From a virus, in the IMG/VR virus record IMGVR_UViG_3300036883_000008, positions 1 through 24,088 of that record: a DNA stretch of 24,088 bases; one strand, 5' to 3'. Below, piece after piece: positions 7,981 through 20,796 of the stretch. The notes under the pieces were generated by a model. It ran no database searches, was not told the origin of the DNA, and was given only the letters and a program-made list of their open reading frames with translations. Positions within the stretch are counted from its first letter, which is position 1. The number at the start of each line of letters is the position of its first letter. The translations under genes and the position numbers were made by a program.

Positions 7981-10900
7981 CTATGCCGCGAAACTCAACT
8001 TTTTCATATGTGCGAGGTCAGGCCCGGCCTCGGCGTCGGCCGTGAACTGCAACGGCGGTATCCAGCCCATCTCATGCAACGGTAGGTTCGCCATGATCTC
8101 GACGATGCGCGCCGCCCACAACTGATGATCCTGCTCGGGGACGTAGGCGATCAAGGCGTCGTGGATCGTCGCCACCATTTCGATTTCGCCGTTCGGATAG
8201 GCGTCGTCGATCAGCGCCACGGCCCACAACATCATGTCGTTCAAGCAGGACTGGATCGGCGAATTGATCGCTTGCCGTTCGGCCTTGGATTTTACGAACC
8301 GGTCCCAACTGCGGATCATCGGTAGATGACGGATGCGGCCGAGCGGCGAGCGCACCATCTGGCTGACCCTGACGATCTCGCGCTGATTGTCGTGGTAGTC
8401 GAGCAGGCCCGGGTAAAGCTTGAAGAAGGCGTCGCGCATCTTGGTCGCTTCCTCAAGCGTGATCTTGAGGCCGTAAGCCGCCCATGCGTAGGCTTGGAAG
8501 CCCTCGGCCGACATGCCGTAGAGAAGGCCGAAGTTCGCCGGCTTTGCGTTGCCACGATACTTCTCGAACAGCGCGGCGAGGGCCGTGTCCGTATGATCCT
8601 TCCACGTCAGGAACTCCTGAACGTCGACCTGCGCCAGCTTGGCCCCGGTGACGGCGTGGAGGTCGAGCCCTTCGAGATAAGCGTTGATCATGGTCGGCTC
8701 GGGCGCGACGCAGGCCACGACCTTGAGCTCGCCTTGGCTGTAATCGACGGACAAGCAAACCTTGCCCTTAGGCGCGGGATAGCACGCGCGCAGCTTCTTG
8801 GCCCAAGTCGTCTTCTTGGGCAGGGTGTTGTGTACGACAAGACCGTTCGCCACAAACGAGTGGCAATCCTCGATTGTAAGATCGAAAGTTTCCTCTCTAC
8901 CGGCGTAGGTTACGGAGACGACGTGGTCTTCTTCGAAAGCGGTCCAGTCCGCCTCTTCTCCGACGCCAATGCTGCTTCCATAGGGAGACCGACACTTAGC
9001 CGATAATGCAGCATCCCACGCGATATGCCCGCATCCTTCGCCCACTGGGCTTCCGTCTTGGTATGCCCGTTGTGCGTAATAAACTTCGTGATAGCTCTGT
9101 TCGACTGTTGTTGTGTTGGCGTAGCCCATCGGCAATTCGCCTTCGAATACCCTTTCGTGTTGTCTGAACGGTCCAATGACGTGCCCGGAGGGCGAGGCCC
9201 CATGTCTTTCAAAAACGTCTCGAACTTCTCCCACGTTGGATCGTAGTTGATTCCATTCGCGCCGTAGCGGGCATAGTCCTTGCTCCCCGTAGAGGAACAT
9301 CTGTTCTTCATCGCGGTCCAAGAATGATACTCTCGGCTCACTGAGCCTCCCGCTGAGTGCCCGTGTTTCTTTGCGTTCTGGTTTCCAAACAAAGCAGGCA
9401 TCCCCGATCTCCAGTAGGTCCGTCCTAACCCAACCACGTCGCGTCAGTATCGGATGGTTGCCTGTGCAGATTACTTCTACGCCAGACACTGTTCGAACTC
9501 TAAAAACCGGCCGAACACCGTTGCGGTAAACACCTATGACGTTACGCCACGCGCCCGTGTGCGTCAGAACTTTATATCCGTGGCCACCAACTTCAACTAT
9601 TGCATCGAGACGAACAGGTCCGACAGATGTCGTGACCACCGTCTCGCCTACCATGCACTGGATCGCCACGTCCTTGGCCGACAAGCGGCCGGTGTTCGTG
9701 CCGCTCTCATTATCGGCCTCGTCGTTGAAATCGCCCTTGTAGAGCATGAAGGTCGGATGGAACCGGCCGTCGGGCCGAAGGTGCTTCAAGAAGCCGTCGA
9801 CAAAGGTCGAGAGGGTCTTGGACGCGCTGTCGCCCTCGGTCATAGCCGCGACCATCGCCTTGGCGTCCGGGTTGTCGGCGAACTGGCGCAAGTGCGCCTT
9901 GGCCAGCGATGGCTCCTTGGTCTTCTCCGTGACCTCCTTCGGCGTCAGGTTCAGCCCGCGCGGCGAGAAGAAGTATTCCTTCACGATCGAGGGCAGCATC
10001 GGGTTCTTGCCTTGCGCGATCTGCTCCTCGATCCGCTCGCGGTATTTCGTCCGCATCATGGTCGGGAGCAGCGACAGCTGCCGGTCCGTGCTGGCCTTGA
10101 TGACGCCGCGCAGCTCCTCGCGCAGCGCGTGCATCTTCTCCACGTCGACGACGATGCCGTTGCGCTCGATCTTCTCGAAGGCCCGGGCGGCAGGGTGCAA
10201 AATCTTGACGTAGAAGCGGGTCAGCTGATGATCCTCGGTCAGCTCGTCCCGCAAAGTGTCCGCCACCTGATGGCAGGCGTCAGTGTCGCCGCCCGCGTAA
10301 GGCAAGAGATCATCGAGCGGGATGTCCTCCATCTTGCCCTTGTCGTATTTGCTGTTCAGGTCGTCGTCATAGCCGCCCATGGACGTATAGACCTTGGCGT
10401 GCAAGTTGAGGCTGTTCGAACGGTTCTCGTCTAGGATGGAGCCGACCAGCAGCGTGTCGAACTTGAAGTTCGTGCAGTGGATGCCCCACTTCGTCTCGAT
10501 CCATACGAGGTCGAATTTGAGGTTCGCGCCGCGCAATTTGACCTTGGGCGAGGTTAGGAGCCAGTTGATCTGCTCGAACAGCGACGGCCCGCTGTTAGGG
10601 ATGGGGACCGGCGTCTTCGACGAGTGCAAATACAGGACGGCGGAGTGACCCGCCTCGACCGTGAACGAGATCGAGACAAGGTCTCGCTCGGGATACCACG
10701 GGTAGAGACCCATCGTCTCCGTATCCATGGTGACGTCGACCGGCTTGCCATTAATTGCAAACTTGGCCTCGACCTTCTCGATGATAGGTAGAAAGGTGCC
10801 GACCCACTCATACTTCCCGATCACGGGCTTGAGCCCGCCCGTCGTCATGAGACGGTGCGCCAGACGCACGTCCCAATCCATGACCGCCTTCTTGTCGAAC

Positions 10901-11208
10901 TCGGTCTGCGTCAGCGCCGGGTCGAAGGTCACGAGGTAATGTCCGCCGCTCTCGCGCTTGATCGGGGTCTCCCGCAGCGAATTGAGCGTGCGGCCCTTGT
11001 GCACGATGCCGGCCTTGCGGAGCGTGTCGAGTGGTTTATTGCCGGCCACAAGCACGACGTCGCCCGCGCCCGGTTCGGGCGGGACGGCGAACTCACTCCA
11101 AGGAGCGAAGCTGTGCTTGGGAATGTTGGGGCGGAACGACTTCAAGGATTGCGCGAAGGTGAGGTTGATCAGCTCCTGCTTCGCGGCGGTCCAGAATATC
11201 AGAGACAT
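7981..11208 (-). CDS. Family A DNA polymerase with 3'-5' exonuclease, interrupted by an intein
   Basis: A 1075-residue precursor whose extein is about 798 residues. It replicates phage DNA. The exonuclease motifs are present: MDTETMGL (Asp162/Glu164), ANLKFDLVW (Asn229, Asp233) and YAGGDTD (Asp308). The polymerase motifs are motif A SVDYSQGE (Asp822, Glu827), motif B RGNAKPANFGLLYG (Arg885 to Gly898, with Lys889, Phe893 and Tyr897) and motif C IHDA (His1016/Asp1017). There is no 5' nuclease domain. The intein interrupts just after TGRLSAKDVAIQ, a highly conserved DNA-contact segment, as is usual for inteins. ATG 11208 has GGAGAG eight bases upstream, lying inside the end of the preceding HNH gene. 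A polymerase between terminase and portal is unusual. A palindrome copy lies within codons 151-154 (AING). Confidence 0.93.
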   Translation of the reverse strand: MSLIFWTAAKQELINLTFAQSLKSFRPNIPKHSFAPWSEFAVPPEPGAGDVVLVAGNKPLDTLRKAGIVHKGRTLNSLRETPIKRESGGHYLVTFDPALTQTEFDKKAVMDWDVRLAHRLMTTGGLKPVIGKYEWVGTFLPIIEKVEAKFAINGKPVDVTMDTETMGLYPWYPERDLVSISFTVEAGHSAVLYLHSSKTPVPIPNSGPSLFEQINWLLTSPKVKLRGANLKFDLVWIETKWGIHCTNFKFDTLLVGSILDENRSNSLNLHAKVYTSMGGYDDDLNSKYDKGKMEDIPLDDLLPYAGGDTDACHQVADTLRDELTEDHQLTRFYVKILHPAARAFEKIERNGIVVDVEKMHALREELRGVIKASTDRQLSLLPTMMRTKYRERIEEQIAQGKNPMLPSIVKEYFFSPRGLNLTPKEVTEKTKEPSLAKAHLRQFADNPDAKAMVAAMTEGDSASKTLSTFVDGFLKHLRPDGRFHPTFMLYKGDFNDEADNESGTNTGRLSAKDVAIQCMVGETVVTTSVGPVRLDAIVEVGGHGYKVLTHTGAWRNVIGVYRNGVRPVFRVRTVSGVEVICTGNHPILTRRGWVRTDLLEIGDACFVWKPERKETRALSGRLSEPRVSFLDRDEEQMFLYGEQGLCPLRREWNQLRSNVGEVRDVFERHGASPSGHVIGPFRQHERVFEGELPMGYANTTTVEQSYHEVYYAQRAYQDGSPVGEGCGHIAWDAALSAKCRSPYGSSIGVGEEADWTAFEEDHVVSVTYAGREETFDLTIEDCHSFVANGLVVHNTLPKKTTWAKKLRACYPAPKGKVCLSVDYSQGELKVVACVAPEPTMINAYLEGLDLHAVTGAKLAQVDVQEFLTWKDHTDTALAALFEKYRGNAKPANFGLLYGMSAEGFQAYAWAAYGLKITLEEATKMRDAFFKLYPGLLDYHDNQREIVRVSQMVRSPLGRIRHLPMIRSWDRFVKSKAERQAINSPIQSCLNDMMLWAVALIDDAYPNGEIEMVATIHDALIAYVPEQDHQLWAARIVEIMANLPLHEMGWIPPLQFTADAEAGPDLAHMKKLSFAA
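8827..9657 (-). other. Intein of 277 residues in the DNA polymerase
   Basis: Precursor residues 518-794. All splicing parts are visible: Cys1 (CMVGETVV, block A), T-G-N-H in block B at intein residues 65-68, block F (FDLTIEDCHSFVANG), the C-terminal His-Asn pair (VVHN) and Thr as the first residue after the junction. It should therefore be able to splice as a standard class 1 intein. The middle, intein residues about 86-249, shows no LAGLIDADG or HNH motif in the intein frame. That stretch instead carries a separate endonuclease gene in another frame, so the intein-frame sequence there is probably an untargeted by-product that must only stay free of stops. Confidence 0.9.
8910..9401 (-). CDS. 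HNH-type homing endonuclease nested out of frame inside the intein
   Basis: A 163-residue protein shifted by one base relative to the polymerase frame. It starts MPALFGNQNAKKHGHSAGGS, with GGAG six bases before the ATG at 9401. Conserved features of a phage endonuclease family follow in order: YHSWTAMKNRC (about 26-36), YARYGANGI, then DMGPRPPGTSLDR, then NCRWATPTQQQ, and a C-terminal helix-turn-helix-like part (EAQWAKDAGISRGMLHYRL). The same family is represented by the decayed copy near 13300. It occupies exactly the slot where in-frame endonucleases usually sit in inteins. The family match in this frame, against no match in the intein frame, shows that this frame is the coding one. Cleavage of an intein-free polymerase gene is the expected role but is inferred. 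Confidence 0.85.
   Translation of the reverse strand: MPALFGNQNAKKHGHSAGGSVSREYHSWTAMKNRCSSTGSKDYARYGANGINYDPTWEKFETFLKDMGPRPPGTSLDRSDNTKGYSKANCRWATPTQQQSNRAITKFITHNGHTKTEAQWAKDAGISRGMLHYRLSVGLPMEAALASEKRRTGPLSKKTTSSP
10746..10767. repeat. 14-bp palindrome copy 5 (TGCCATTAATTGCA) within a 22-bp repeat
   Basis: The palindrome variant occupies 10746-10759 inside the polymerase gene, at the edge of the exonuclease domain. It is followed by AACTTGGC, and the whole 22 bases are identical to those at 11691-11712, which overlap the start of the HNH gene next door. Confidence 0.8.
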
Positions 11209-11696
11209 GCGGTAAACTCTCCATCCAGCGGGACGGCGGCATCATTATAAGCCGCGCCTGCCGCTTCCTTTTCAACGAAGAACCCAAGTGAACGCCGAAC
11301 TCCATTCCGCATTATCCGCACACGATAGAGGCCACGGGATGCGTCGTAATGCACGCCCTTCAAGCCGGTGCTGTTGTTTTTTGCCAAACTCCTGTTCGCG
11401 CAATTCTGCTGTTGTGTGGCGTGCCGCAAGTTCGCATAGCGGGCGTCCGTGCGCGTCCGGTTCTTGTGGTCGACCAATTTGGTTGGCCATTTGCCCTCCA
11501 CGTAGAAGACGGCCAATCGTGAGAGCATGTAACGCTTCCCGTCGATCCTGATCTGGCTATAACCGTCGGGTCGAACTGCCCCGGCGACACTACCGACCTT
11601 GACGCGATTGTTCGGCGAGACGCGCCAGCGAAACACCCCGGTCGCGGGGTCGTAATCAAGTAGCTCTAACAGTCGCTCGTGCGTCAAACATGCCAT
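11199..11696 (-). CDS. HNH homing endonuclease with AP2 DNA-binding domain
   Basis: A 165-residue protein starting MACLTHERLLELLDYDPATG. Residues 1-60 carry the family N-terminus (TGVFRWRVS, then YMLSRLAVFYVEGKWP). The HNH core is VDHKNRTRTDARYANLRHAT (about 70-90), followed by an AP2 DNA-binding domain with STGLKGVHYDASRGLYRVRI. It ends LDGEFTACL. The AP2-HNH gene at 20278-20796 is a clear paralog. Its ATG lies inside a palindrome copy and has no obvious ribosome site, so expression may be weak or controlled through that site. The codons for GEF supply the GGAGAG ribosome site of the polymerase, whose ATG overlaps this gene's end by ten bases. Such proteins cut near the insertion site in genomes lacking the gene. 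Confidence 0.85.
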   Translation of the reverse strand: MACLTHERLLELLDYDPATGVFRWRVSPNNRVKVGSVAGAVRPDGYSQIRIDGKRYMLSRLAVFYVEGKWPTKLVDHKNRTRTDARYANLRHATQQQNCANRSLAKNNSTGLKGVHYDASRGLYRVRIMRNGVRRSLGFFVEKEAAGAAYNDAAVPLDGEFTACL

Positions 11697-11712
11697 TAAT
11701 TGCAAACTTGGC
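11691..11712. repeat. 14-bp palindrome copy 6 (TGCCATTAATTGCA) within a 22-bp repeat
   Basis: The palindrome variant at 11691-11704 contains the ATG of the AP2-HNH gene on the minus strand (11696-11694). With the next eight bases it is identical to 10746-10767 inside the polymerase gene. Confidence 0.8.
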
Positions 11713-11719
11713 TCACAGG

Positions 11720-12130
11720 TCACATTGGCTCCCATTTGGTCGTGTTGACGCGGCGATAGGATTTGACGACCGCGCTGCCGAGCAGCTCCAGCGCCTCCCC
11801 GCGCGTCTTCGGTTTCTTCTTGTCCAGCCACGTGTCGAGCTGGTCCATCTTGGCGAGGTTCAGCACGTGGACCGTGCACCTTTGCGGCCCGCTTTCACTG
11901 ATGACGACGAGCAAGGCGAGATTGCCGAGCACGTTGACGGCGGCGAAAATGCACTCGGGCAGCAGCAGCGAGCCGGCGATCTTCGGCTTCAAGGGGAGGG
12001 AGAGGTCGCCAAGGAACATCGCGCGCTCGGCCTTGCCGGATAGCTTGCCGGTCGCGTAATCGAGCTCGACGGTCATCCCGAGAATGTCCGCGACGCTGTA
12101 AAGGTCCGACTTGTTCACTTGAAAGTCCAC
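11720..12130 (-). CDS. Unknown protein, 136 residues
   Basis: The start is a GTG at 12130 with GGGAGG five bases upstream, overlapping the previous gene's end by 16 bases. The sequence (VDFQVNKSDLYSVADILGMT and onwards) has a strand-rich middle (GSLLLPECIFAAVNVLGNLA, ALLVVISES) and a charged, helical C-terminus (WLDKKKPKTRGEALELLG). I see no catalytic motif, signal peptide or convincing membrane segment. It belongs to a tight three-gene run with the two unknown genes upstream, which suggests a shared role. I do not recognise the family. Confidence 0.7.
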   Translation of the reverse strand: MDFQVNKSDLYSVADILGMTVELDYATGKLSGKAERAMFLGDLSLPLKPKIAGSLLLPECIFAAVNVLGNLALLVVISESGPQRCTVHVLNLAKMDQLDTWLDKKKPKTRGEALELLGSAVVKSYRRVNTTKWEPM

Positions 12131-13184: not shown

Positions 13185-13447
13185 TCAACCTCCTTGTTGG
13201 TTGGCTTTCGTAAGTGCTTGTTCAAGGCTCAAGCCTTTAGACAGACGCCGCAGCAACGTCGTTTTCGGAACCCCATAGAGCTTTTCGCCCCATACTTGTG
13301 AAAGCTGACGTGCTTCGGGTTTAAGCAACGCTCAATCATCCGTTTCCACGATATATAGGTGGCCGTAGGCCCTCCTTTTGATGGTCTTGAATGTCCGTGT
13401 TTGAGCACTTTCAAATCCCTCCTTGGACAGCGTGGACACAGCTTCAT
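13185..13447 (-). pseudogene. Decayed HNH-type homing endonuclease with an internal deletion
   Basis: The first frame from ATG 13447 (MKLCPRCPRRDLKVLKHGHS) gives the normal N-terminus of the family, including TYISWKRMIERC and FHKYG. It then leaves the family pattern and stops at 13229. The family's C-terminus continues in the +1 frame: KLYGVPKTTLLRRLSKGLSL followed by EQALTKANQQGG and a stop at 13185. The middle with the catalytic DMG, SLDR and NCRWAT motifs, seen intact in the intein-nested relative, is missing. The gene has therefore lost about 70-80 residues and a frame. A zinc-finger-like CPRC near the start remains. It lies between a palindrome copy and the strongly translated gene downstream. 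Confidence 0.8.
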
Positions 13448-13481
13448 TCTACTCCCCGGCCGCTCGCCGACAACAAGAAAA

Positions 13482-13495
13482 TGCAATTGATTGCA
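13482..13495. repeat. 14-bp palindrome copy 7, TGCAATTGATTGCA
   Basis: G-centred variant in the 65-base gap between the stop of a phosphatase gene and the decayed HNH gene. The bases just after it on the plus strand (CG) are also shared with copies 1 and 13. Confidence 0.85.
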
Positions 13496-13512
13496 CGCGC
13501 CTCGCCGTATAC

Positions 13513-14274
13513 TTACCAAATTCCGCCCTGTCCCGGGAGCGGCGCGAACCTATCCTTGCCCGCGCTCTTGGCGGGAGAATAGTTGACGGTCTTCGACACG
13601 ACCGAGGTCGACCCGCTCTTGTGCCCCTTGGCCTTCTTGATCCCGAACTGATCGGTCAGGAACTTGGTCTGCGTCGCGCTCTCGACCGCCTTGTGGCAGT
13701 AATTCTTGCGCACGTATTCGACCGCGTCCTGCTCGCCGAAGAGGCTGACGAGCGCCGCGAGGAAGGTTCCGGTCCGCCCGTGCCCGCCGATGCAGCCGGC
13801 ATGTATCTTGGCCTTCTTCGCCAGCTGCTTCTTCACCCATTCGACCATCCGCCGAAATTCCTCGGCGTCCTTGGGCACTCCCATGTCGGGAATGAGGAAG
13901 CGGACCTCGTCGCCCTTGATCCAATGGAACTTTTTGTTCATCTCCTTCATCGTGCTATCGAAGCCGATGTAAATGTCGGCGTCCTTGACGATCGGCGCGG
14001 AGCACGAGCCGCCATAGATCACGAACTCCGTCCCGGGCAGCTTGAGCGGCGGGTGGCTCTCATAGCAGCGCGCGAAGCCGCCGCCGAACGACCCGTCGTT
14101 GTAATAGACGCCCTTGTCGTCGTGAAGGTTGTCGTAAATCTTCGAGATCGCCGGATCATTGGCCAGCTTGCGTACCTTCTTCTCGAACTCGCTCCAATCG
14201 TCCACGTGACTGCCCCCCCGACGACCGGAACTGCGGTTCGTAAAGTCCATCGAATTTAACCCCTTGCGCGACAT
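13513..14274 (-). CDS. Tyrosine/dual-specificity-type protein phosphatase 1
   Basis: A 253-residue protein. The C-x5-R-T loop is HAGCIGGHGRTG, giving a cysteine phospho-enzyme and the phosphate-holding arginine. An Asp in IPDMGVPKD, about 35 residues earlier, is a candidate general acid. A conserved pattern, EYVRKNYCHKAVES, follows. The residue before the cysteine is glycine rather than the usual histidine, as in the paralog at 15907-16419, so this may be a phage subgroup. The N-terminal 100 residues are extra relative to the paralog. The C-terminal 35 residues are Ser/Lys-rich and disordered. The start at 14274 has AAGGAGG five bases upstream. The substrate is unknown. Confidence 0.8.
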   Translation of the reverse strand: MSRKGLNSMDFTNRSSGRRGGSHVDDWSEFEKKVRKLANDPAISKIYDNLHDDKGVYYNDGSFGGGFARCYESHPPLKLPGTEFVIYGGSCSAPIVKDADIYIGFDSTMKEMNKKFHWIKGDEVRFLIPDMGVPKDAEEFRRMVEWVKKQLAKKAKIHAGCIGGHGRTGTFLAALVSLFGEQDAVEYVRKNYCHKAVESATQTKFLTDQFGIKKAKGHKSGSTSVVSKTVNYSPAKSAGKDRFAPLPGQGGIW

Positions 14275-14288
14275 GTCGCCCTCCTTGG

Positions 14289-14729
14289 CTAGACGCCCCA
14301 ACAACGCAACCGCCACCGTTCGCGGGCGCTGGTTCGATTACACTCGCGGCAAATGCGTTTGCCGTTATAGATTGCCGTATTCTCGTCCGTGTAGGCGTGT
14401 CCGTGCGGGCAATGCGTCTTATCCCGCTGAAACGCTGAATGATCGTGCACCGCCAGATGGTCAGCGCGCGTCTTGCGCTCCAAATGCTCTGGAAATATGC
14501 ACGGCTTGTTCTCGCAAATGTGGTGCACGTCATCATCACCCGGGTCTTCGACCAGAGCAGCGAACACTAAACGCGCCGCTGGCCAGCACACCCCTTTGAA
14601 CTGCACATACGGCCGATCTTTCTTCCCCGGGTCAAGAACAAGACACTCGCCATCTGGCGTCGCGATCGACAGCAGATGCTTCGCCATCGTGACAATGTCT
14701 TTGGGACGAATGTGCTTGCGGACGCTCAT
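14289..14729 (-). CDS. HNH endonuclease with C-terminal zinc finger
   Basis: A 146-residue protein starting MSVRKHIRPKDIVTMAKHLL, coupled to the previous gene by an ATGA overlap. The HNH core is VHHICENKPCIFPEHLE (about 88-104), with paired cysteines that likely hold a structural metal. The C-terminus has HCPHGHAYTDENTAIYNGKR and ICREC, a C-x-H-x-H plus C-x2-C zinc finger common in phage homing endonucleases. It lies between an unknown gene and a phosphatase and ends 15 bases before the latter's start. No palindrome copy adjoins it, unlike two other HNH genes here. It is probably a free-standing homing endonuclease. Confidence 0.85.
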   Translation of the reverse strand: MSVRKHIRPKDIVTMAKHLLSIATPDGECLVLDPGKKDRPYVQFKGVCWPAARLVFAALVEDPGDDDVHHICENKPCIFPEHLERKTRADHLAVHDHSAFQRDKTHCPHGHAYTDENTAIYNGKRICRECNRTSARERWRLRCWGV

Positions 14730-18994: not shown

Positions 18995-19014
18995 TCATGA
19001 TGCAATTAATTGCA
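18995..19014. repeat. Right direct repeat, with palindrome copy 11 (TGCAATTAATTGCA)
   Basis: TCATGA plus the perfect palindrome at 19001-19014. It repeats the 20 bases at 19441-19460 with two changes. The stop codon and last residues (LQLIAS) of the HNH gene lie in it. Confidence 0.8.
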
Positions 19015-19444
19015 GCGTCTTCGTCCAGCCGCCACGACGTTTCAAACGACGCACGTGATGGGCCGACACGCCATAATCGGCGGCGATAACCGTGGCGGCG
19101 CGCGGGTCTGACACAATTGCCGAGACTTGATCCAAGGTGAGTTTGAGTATGCGGCGCATCTTGCGCTCCCGATCCAAAGCGTTCACCCGATGCGTGCCGG
19201 AGAACAAATGGCCCGGGTTGCAGCAAGGCGGGTTGTCGCAGGAATGGCAGACGATCATGCCGTGGGGAAGCTCATGTTCGCGAGTGAACGCGAACACATG
19301 TGCTCTGCCTACGCGACCGTCGAAACCAAAACGTCCGTAGCCGTCGTCATTGCACGAACCCAACCACGGCCAACAAGCATCGGGTCCACCCGACATGTTG
19401 ACCTTCAACCAAAATCTCGCCTCGGGCTTCGTGTGATTGGTCAT
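18995..19444 (-). CDS. HNH homing endonuclease bounded by direct repeats
   Basis: A 149-residue protein starting MTNHTKPEARFWLKVNMSGG. The HNH_3-type core is AHVFAFTREHELPHGMIVCH with CDNPPCCNPGHLFSGTH and NALDRERK (about residues 48-95). A helix-turn-helix-like end (VIAADYGVSAHHVRRLKRRG) follows. It begins at an ATGA overlap with the upstream gene, and its last codons read LQLIAS. The upstream gene also ends MQLIAS, because both ends lie in copies of a 20-bp repeat. Removing the 446 bases between the repeats would leave the upstream gene whole. The PPDK-like gene follows. There is no obvious ribosome site, so it relies on coupling. Confidence 0.85.
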   Translation of the reverse strand: MTNHTKPEARFWLKVNMSGGPDACWPWLGSCNDDGYGRFGFDGRVGRAHVFAFTREHELPHGMIVCHSCDNPPCCNPGHLFSGTHRVNALDRERKMRRILKLTLDQVSAIVSDPRAATVIAADYGVSAHHVRRLKRRGGWTKTLQLIAS

Positions 19445-19460
19445 GACGCAATTAACTGCA
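19441..19460. repeat. Left direct repeat, with palindrome copy 12 (CGCAATTAACTGCA)
   Basis: TCATGA plus a palindrome variant at 19447-19460. It holds the stop codon of the upstream gene and the ATG of the HNH gene, and repeats 18995-19014 with C/T differences at two positions. Confidence 0.8.
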
Positions 19461-19953
19461 TCGTTCGAGTAGGGTAGAGCCCCATCAGGACGGACTTGCC
19501 AATCAGCTTCTTGGCCTCGGCCACGAGCCGCTGCTCCTCGAACTTCCAGACCGCGCCGTTGCCAGCCGTGTCCTTGCTCTCGTCCTTGAGGTCGTCGATC
19601 AGCAGCAACGAGACGAGCACGGCTTGGTTCTGCTTGTCCTCGATCCGGCCTTCCGAGACGAGCGACAGCGCGAACATGGCGCAAGCGTAGAGCCCGTGGC
19701 GCGGATCATCCGGGGAGAGGTCGCGCAGCAAGGTCACGGCGCAATCGTCGATGCGCTTGGCGAGGCGCGCGATGCTGAGCTGATCGCACTTGGCCAGTGG
19801 CGCGGCGGCGGCCATGTTCAAGCGATGCAGCACGTCAGACCGGAACTCATAGCCGGCCTTCATACACTGCTCAGCCATCAGCACGAGCATATGAGCGGGC
19901 AGGGCGCGCTCGACGACGTCGGCGTCACGGGTCTTGATCTCGTTCGGGTTCAT
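19441..19953 (-). CDS. Unknown helical protein, 170 residues
   Basis: It starts MNPNEIKTRDADVVERALPA with an ATGA overlap on the gene before. It is mostly helical, with LVLMAEQCMKAGYEFRSDVL, LAKRIDDCAVTLLRDLSPDD and a leucine-rich segment (AVLVSLLLIDDLKD). It ends GLYPTRTMQLIAS, where the final five residues are encoded by the repeat shared with the HNH gene next door, so its native end may once have been different. No family is recognised. It forms a pair with the 113-residue gene upstream. Confidence 0.7.
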   Translation of the reverse strand: MNPNEIKTRDADVVERALPAHMLVLMAEQCMKAGYEFRSDVLHRLNMAAAAPLAKCDQLSIARLAKRIDDCAVTLLRDLSPDDPRHGLYACAMFALSLVSEGRIEDKQNQAVLVSLLLIDDLKDESKDTAGNGAVWKFEEQRLVAEAKKLIGKSVLMGLYPTRTMQLIAS

Positions 19954-20291
19954 GGCTGGCTCCGTGTCTTGCGCCGCTTGGTCTTCACAGACTTGAGCTG
20001 CGGCTTCTGGCTGTCAATCTGGTTGCTCACGTCGAGGTAGGGCGTCTCCGCGACGGCGCGGTGCGCGGTGGCGTGAATGTCGAGGAACGGGTCGACGCCC
20101 GTGGTCGAGTGAGCGTCGTCGCGCTCGGGCAGCTCCGTGCCGCCGAGGTCCTGCGCGGTCCGCGTGGCCCAATCGGTCGCGTCGTGGACGGTGACGACAT
20201 AGCCGGCGACGCCGTAGGGCACCTTGGCGCGGTCGAGCTCGTCCGTGAACACGCGCTGGTTCGTGTCGCTTGAGAAGCTATAGCGTGCCAC
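19950..20291 (-). CDS. Unknown protein, 113 residues
   Basis: The likely start is a GTG at 20291 (VARYSFSSDTNQRVFTDELD), with GGGGAG seven bases upstream. The longer reading from further upstream overlaps the HNH gene and is not protein-like there. The N-terminal half is mixed strand and helix (YGVAGYVVTVHDATDWATRT). The C-terminus is strongly basic (KSVKTKRRKTRSQP), suggesting nucleic-acid contact. There is no known motif. Its ribosome site lies inside the end of the AP2-HNH gene. Confidence 0.65.
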   Translation of the reverse strand: MARYSFSSDTNQRVFTDELDRAKVPYGVAGYVVTVHDATDWATRTAQDLGGTELPERDDAHSTTGVDPFLDIHATAHRAVAETPYLDVSNQIDSQKPQLKSVKTKRRKTRSQP

Positions 20292-20796
20292 GATAGAACT
20301 CCCCACGCAATTCCCTAGCGCGCTTTTCGCGGGCCAACGCCGCCTCCTCGAACGTAGAGAACGGACCCATATACTCGCGCTCCCCGTTGGTCTGTATTCG
20401 AGCGTAGATCGTGCCCTTCGTTTGATACACACCAACAAATCCGGTCTGCGTATTAGGGCGAGCTTTAGACGGCGGTTTGTTCCACTCTTGTTGCACGTCC
20501 GTGGCTGGCCTTAGATTGTCCCAATGATTGTTGCCTTTGTCGAGATCGCGATGATCGACCTCATGCTCGGGCCACTCGCCGGTCATGTAGAACCACGCGA
20601 GAATATGCGAGAGGTAGTTGTGCTGATCAACGCGCAAAACCCAATACCCGCGCGTCGAACACCCGGCAATGCTTCCGGCCTTCACTCGACCCTTGTTCAC
20701 GCGCCAAGTCCACAACCCCGTTTCGGGGTCGTAGTGCAAAAGCGTCTTGAGCCGCTCCAGCGTTAGCGTTGAGCTGCCGAACTCATACCGCTTCAT
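20278..20796 (-). CDS. HNH homing endonuclease with AP2 DNA-binding domain, after the large terminase gene
   Basis: A 172-residue protein starting MKRYEFGSSTLTLERLKTLL, overlapping the terminase end by 14 bases. The N-terminal part (YDPETGLWTWRVNKGRVKAG) and LSHILAWFYMTGEWP match the paralog near 11199-11696. The HNH core is VDHRDLDKGNNHWDNLRPAT (about 85-104), followed by an AP2 domain with TGFVGVYQTKGTIYARIQTN. It ends RGEFYRGTL, and the GEF codons give GGGGAG, the ribosome site of the next gene. HNH proteins next to terminases sometimes assist packaging, but the AP2 domain argues for homing here. Confidence 0.85.
   Translation of the reverse strand: MKRYEFGSSTLTLERLKTLLHYDPETGLWTWRVNKGRVKAGSIAGCSTRGYWVLRVDQHNYLSHILAWFYMTGEWPEHEVDHRDLDKGNNHWDNLRPATDVQQEWNKPPSKARPNTQTGFVGVYQTKGTIYARIQTNGEREYMGPFSTFEEAALAREKRARELRGEFYRGTL

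Follow-up and report, generated by a model that had tools for sequence, protein, structure and literature searches.

A putative overlapping HNH endonuclease gene within the intein of a phage DNA polymerase, and its recurrence in other inteins

The DNA analysed here (the window) is a 24,088-base phage fragment from IMG/VR. Its minus strand carries a gene for a family A DNA polymerase that is interrupted by an intein, and a second open reading frame lies inside the intein in the +1 frame. The features of the locus are as follows.

7981-11208, minus strand: intein-interrupted DNA polymerase family A precursor with 3'-5' exonuclease and polymerase (1075 aa; PF00476 E 4e-52, PF01612 E 1e-13)
9658-11208, minus strand: N-extein, ending ...AKDVAIQ (alignment with intein-less relatives)
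8827-9657, minus strand: intein of 277 aa, Cys1 to Asn277, then Thr (TIGR01445, TIGR01443, PF14890; exact empty site in locus L023)
9394-9657, minus strand: Hint N-terminal splicing region, residues 1-88, with Cys1, the TGNH block B and the LEIGD motif (alignment of 12 inteins; AlphaFold2 pLDDT 71-89)
9409-9412, minus strand: GGAG Shine-Dalgarno-like site 7 nt before the ATG, coded by the conserved LEIGD motif of the intein (sequence)
8910-9401, minus strand: nested gene for a putative HNH endonuclease of 163 aa, shifted to the +1 frame with respect to the intein, ATG at 9401 and stop at 8910 (phrog_3377, AlphaFold2, nine further loci)
8941-9393, minus strand: overprinted stretch, intein-frame residues 89-239, without a family match and mostly predicted to be disordered
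8827-8940, minus strand: Hint C-terminal splicing region, FDLTIEDCHSFVANGLVVHN (intein profiles, alignment, AlphaFold2)
7981-8826, minus strand: C-extein, starting TLPKK

The polymerase ORF is free of stops over its 1075 residues and passes through the intein, which corresponds to precursor residues 518-794. The intein was matched by TIGR01445 (E 1e-7), TIGR01443 (E 1e-4) and PF14890 (E 2e-11). The class 1 residues Cys1, T65-G-N-H68, H276-N277 and Thr+1 are all present, and residues 1, 65, 67, 68, 276 and 277 are invariant across the 12 aligned inteins. These splicing residues and an in-frame insertion at a conserved host site, missing from relatives, identify a class 1 Hint-type intein, in agreement with the original prediction that all splicing motifs are present. 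The AlphaFold2 model of the intein frame is fairly confident for the Hint domain, whose best PDB matches are inteins (E 3e-7), and disordered at residues 95-236. Profile searches of the middle of the intein in its own frame gave no match to a nuclease family; the predicted lack of an endonuclease motif there was thus borne out, and the element is not of the fused-nuclease type by this measure. A split intein or fractured gene was rejected for the window because intein and polymerase form one ORF.

The nested protein was matched by the HNH endonuclease profile phrog_3377 over residues 17-154 (E 6e-44), and its AlphaFold2 model is confident (mean pLDDT 86). Pfam, including its HNH families, gave no match to it, nor did a PDB sequence search with the HNH profile; Foldseek found no significant PDB fold for the model, the best being the PacI HNH (E 0.39). 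The profile match, with the GGAG site and the ATG, upholds the earlier claim of a full HNH-type protein one base out of frame. In nine of ten polA loci, a Shine-Dalgarno-like G-rich stretch precedes an ATG at intein residue 86-95, directly after the conserved GD motif, and in most of them the Gly and Asp codons of that motif supply the GGAG or GGGGA. The sites in L066, L079, L101, L188 and L194 are G-rich and not perfect GGAG, and L189 has no clear ATG comparable to the start in the other polA loci. Because the Shine-Dalgarno-like site lies inside the GD-motif codons, the splicing domain appears to lend its coding sequence as a ribosome-binding site.

The window fragment is rich in putative homing endonucleases. 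Four more free-standing HNH_3-type genes (PF13392, one below the cut-off) were observed, as was a truncated ORF resembling the nested HNH family:

11202-11879, 14292-14729, 18998-19570, 20281-20796 and 13232-13519 (minus): the four HNH_3-type genes and the truncated ORF

Separately, the palindrome TGCAATNNATTGCA occurs in the window in 14 copies with at most 2 mismatches, against 0.55 expected by shuffling (positions 98, 3664, 3706, 5371, 7965, 10746, 11691, 13482, 15876, 17001, 17681, 19001, 19447 and 21533). Many copies lie at gene boundaries, and the palindrome is perhaps a repeated regulatory site.

A scan of viral contigs with the polymerase C-terminus yielded 79 loci, most of them without an intein. 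The same arrangement, which the original prediction had proposed to look for in related polymerases, was found in nine other complete inteins at this polA site; all nine have a nested HNH gene that keeps this phase, both frames being free of stops, and they are 30-43% identical in the intein frame. The window HNH as a query alone retrieved few close relatives, and alignments were needed. The nested proteins are of a short type (150-163 aa) or a longer type (about 213-236 aa) whose N-terminal part has a CxC...CGC stretch (L074, L189, L194). Identical copies of the window arrangement occur in two other assemblies, L002 and L003. The distribution of the intein is disjunct: L023, whose polymerase is 97% identical to that of the window, has a gap-free empty site, as do the cultured relatives RHph_Y1_11 and RcZahn (FQ-TIPKK or FQ-IIPKK), and the nearest intein sits in a polymerase with a C-extein only 46% identical. 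The only hit in a scan of genome contigs was a distant Lyngbya intein, which has no nested gene. Trees of the splicing domain, HNH and extein were poorly supported and resolved neither joint nor separate descent.

Other states of the same site were also found. L062 has an intein with LAGLIDADG-like motifs in frame, and L191 has a mini-intein without HNH. L190 (1643-2242) retains an internally deleted HNH remnant that is still in the +1 frame, with the intein frame open, and is best read as nuclease decay without intein loss. In L195 (1507-3294 and 3278-5344; identical in L196) the intein is naturally split: the N part ends at a TAG, and the overlapping ATG of the C part is in the +1 HNH phase with GAGGGGG upstream. 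No HNH is left at this split-intein site in L195 or L196. At another position of the gene, the polymerases of L047, L062, L074 and L101 have a second intein before TGRLS, which in L047, L074 and L101 appears to carry an in-frame HNH-like domain; L074 and L101 have one more upstream, giving up to three inteins per gene.

In a first survey of HNH relatives, zero intein-frame stops were seen only in the nested ones, and the others had 2-25. Among 239 distinct HNH ORFs the stop counts were bimodal, with none in 30, one in 1 and at least two in 208; 29 of the 30 stop-free ORFs lie inside inteins, and the exception (L174) is short. The probability of an open frame, P(open), was estimated by drawing synonymous codons anew from the host polymerase while the nested protein stayed unchanged. 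It was 0.048 for L004, 0.019 for the window and 5e-13 for the AT-rich L197 (34% GC), each value applying to one locus and the loci being treated as independent draws, which they strictly are not. By these measures the open intein frame over the HNH gene is not a product of chance. The bimodal counts and P(open) values of 0.05 to 5e-13 agree with the earlier claim that the intein frame must stay open across foreign sequence.

The genetic code sets what such openness demands. In the observed phase, an intein-frame stop arises only where an HNH codon has T in its third position and the next codon begins with AA, AG or GA; since T to C is always silent at such codons, these stops can always be removed silently. 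In the other phase, a TGA is unavoidable wherever Met precedes Lys, Asn, Thr, Ile or another Met. The HNH motif AMKxRC holds such a pair, and at least one forced stop was present in 182 of 238 HNH ORFs; there is none in the other-phase cases SO-1, Jerseyvirus, Vibrio 97.13 and L305. The proposed phase rule is derived from the code, and the sequences compared agree with it.

The comparison of codon-position substitution in both frames, suggested in advance as a check, pointed to selection on the HNH protein. Codon position 3 differs most among the nested HNH genes, and between SO-1 and the Salmonella phage BPS11T2 (Jerseyvirus), with 121 substitutions in 247 codons, dN/dS was 0.16 for the HNH frame against 0.68 for the intein frame. 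The intein frame of this pair has 0 stops and the third frame 22-26. Identity in the intein frame over the overlap is mostly within the expectation from HNH conservation, with a few pairs above it; selection there thus seems to require little more than an open frame.

The arrangement, as far as it can be read from sequence, recurs widely, cultured phages included, and is no singleton. The third intein of L195, at another polA site, has a different HNH in the +1 frame. A search with this HNH led to a second intein family (CIAEGxLVLTxxG...VYDILNAGPRHRFTVSGxLVHN), in which helicases as well as several polA sites harbour nested HNH genes; L295 has two such inteins with nested HNH in one gene. The survey total was 29 nested HNH genes within inteins of polymerases and helicases, a number that is no estimate of prevalence because nested HNH proteins served as its seeds. 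Among 30 host ORFs examined, 23 matched DNA_pol_A and 2 a RadD-like helicase. The arrangement was read directly in phages Sodalis SO-1, Salmonella BPS11T2, Streptococcus Javan255, Caulobacter GB2A, Hamiltonella APSE-1, Gardnerella vB_Gva_AB1 and Vibrio 97.13, and the Dhillonvirus vB_EcoS_PS2 of E. coli also has it, with a nested HNH that shares 98% identity with the SO-1 protein. GenBank annotates the nested HNH in APSE-1 and SO-1. For SO-1 gp39 (L364, 2264-3022), "type I self-splicing intron" in the GenBank note looks mistaken, since the polymerase frame runs open through an intein and Rfam gave no intron there.

The main surviving rival to internal initiation is a programmed +1 ribosomal frameshift near intein residue 86, which would yield a fusion of the N-intein with the HNH protein. 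Phages are known to use ribosomal frameshifting, and in every locus the open HNH frame reaches back a few codons beyond its start. The recurrence of an ATG with an upstream G-rich site near the same intein residue in nine of ten polA loci speaks against a frameshift, as does the poor conservation of the first HNH codons, and we regard this explanation as improbable. We give still less weight to the possibility that the nested ORF is the dead relic of an inserted HNH gene and that only the intein works. The deleted remnant in L190 and the absence of HNH in L191 would fit a relic and indicate that an intein can persist without the HNH; against it stand the full HNH genes kept in ten diverged loci, the HNH dN/dS between SO-1 and Jerseyvirus and the third-position bias among nested genes.

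A self-splicing intron with an ORF, the open frame being incidental, is suggested by the annotation of SO-1 gp38/gp39 as a type I intron, and HNH genes are commonly intron-encoded. Rfam at the gathering threshold gave no intron match in the window and eight related loci, and a group I intron was ruled out on this result; the N- and C-terminal intein profiles, the Hint fold, the open frame and the conserved intein motifs also make an intron a very remote prospect. Nothing spoke for an in-frame intein endonuclease disrupted at its two ends by sequencing or assembly errors, and we give this explanation hardly any credence. Such one-base errors, named beforehand as what would undo the prediction, are contradicted and excluded by the identical copies in L002 and L003 together with the diverged homologues, and the same phase recurs in many unrelated assemblies and in cultured phages.

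We favour, with a probability of roughly 0.8, a homing intein whose endonuclease would be an overlapping, separately translated gene and not an in-frame domain. The two frames are open; the steps that follow are suggested by motif conservation, selection and the disjunct distribution. Ribosomes in the polymerase frame would make the precursor, from which the Hint domain would splice by the class 1 route (Cys1, Asn277, Thr+1). Other ribosomes would initiate at the internal ATG, guided by the Shine-Dalgarno-like site coded in the GD motif of the intein itself, and release a free HNH protein. In polA alleles that lack the intein, this protein may cut close to the insertion site; recombination repair would then copy the whole element into the cut allele. 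What is selected is the HNH protein in one frame and, in the other, freedom from stops. We also lean, with less assurance, towards the view that inteins with an overprinted, separately translated endonuclease may form a widespread and recurrently evolved class of mobile elements, in which the nuclease sequence sets the phase and which may be a route to split inteins. The C part of L195/L196, starting in the HNH phase, is a pointer to that route.

Inteins are classified by whether an in-frame endonuclease is present. Those described here would be filed as having an odd, unrecognised middle despite a complete nuclease gene; the "intein-containing DNA polymerase precursor" of Salmonella phages is an example. 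With two separate proteins, the nuclease would be free to act untied from the splicing domain and could be lost without loss of the intein (L190, L191), and this separation may explain the interconversion of contiguous, mini and split inteins. As a search rule, inteins with an unassignable middle should be scanned in the other two frames. The presence of the arrangement in cultured phages of E. coli, Salmonella and Streptococcus makes homing by an overlapping gene open to direct test.

Among known systems, the canonical intein of L062 shares the host gene, insertion site and splicing blocks with the window, while its LAGLIDADG-like motifs are in frame and the window nuclease is read in the +1 frame. 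Fractured genes, in which split inteins are accompanied by a free-standing endonuclease gene, were reportedly described by Dassa et al. in 2009. They resemble the window in having a separately translated endonuclease between the intein halves, and differ in that the host gene is in two ORFs, whereas intein and polymerase share one here. In Pectobacterium phages Ymer, Abuela and Amona (L012-L014), the helicase gene is broken within an intein-like region and its halves flank an overlapping LAGLIDADG gene, a fractured-gene layout. SO-1 gp38/gp39 and APSE-1 P45/P46 are like the window in that an HNH CDS is annotated inside an uninterrupted CDS for an intein-containing DNA polymerase. Unlike the window, they represent a different intein family and other insertion sites, are called a type I intron or left uncommented, and in SO-1 the other phase is used.

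The nearest published case is the ShiLan element, an out-of-frame HNH insertion in a phage methylase with the host frame open (Arsenault, Gosselin and Gogarten 2025, PMC11855218). It shares with the window the insertion into a phage gene, the open host frame, the HNH in another frame and the disjunct distribution. It has no splicing domains, is thought to stay in the methylase, and no ribosome-binding site was detected in it (PMC11855218), whereas the window has a full intein in a DNA polymerase with a Shine-Dalgarno-like site and an ATG. A hidden insertion of the ShiLan type was rejected for the window in view of the intein profiles. The only items to emerge from a full-text literature search were the ShiLan paper and a genome announcement reporting such a methylase. 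The original view that an intact intein with an overprinted endonuclease is not well described is refined by the ShiLan case, in which an out-of-frame HNH inside a phage gene is already published. A 2025 bioRxiv preprint of the same group on actinobacteriophage inteins of "non-canonical architecture" (10.1101/2025.01.02.630785), cited in PMC11855218, may already describe similar inteins. The present analysis adds the recurrence and the cultured examples, together with the stop-purging test and the phase rule.
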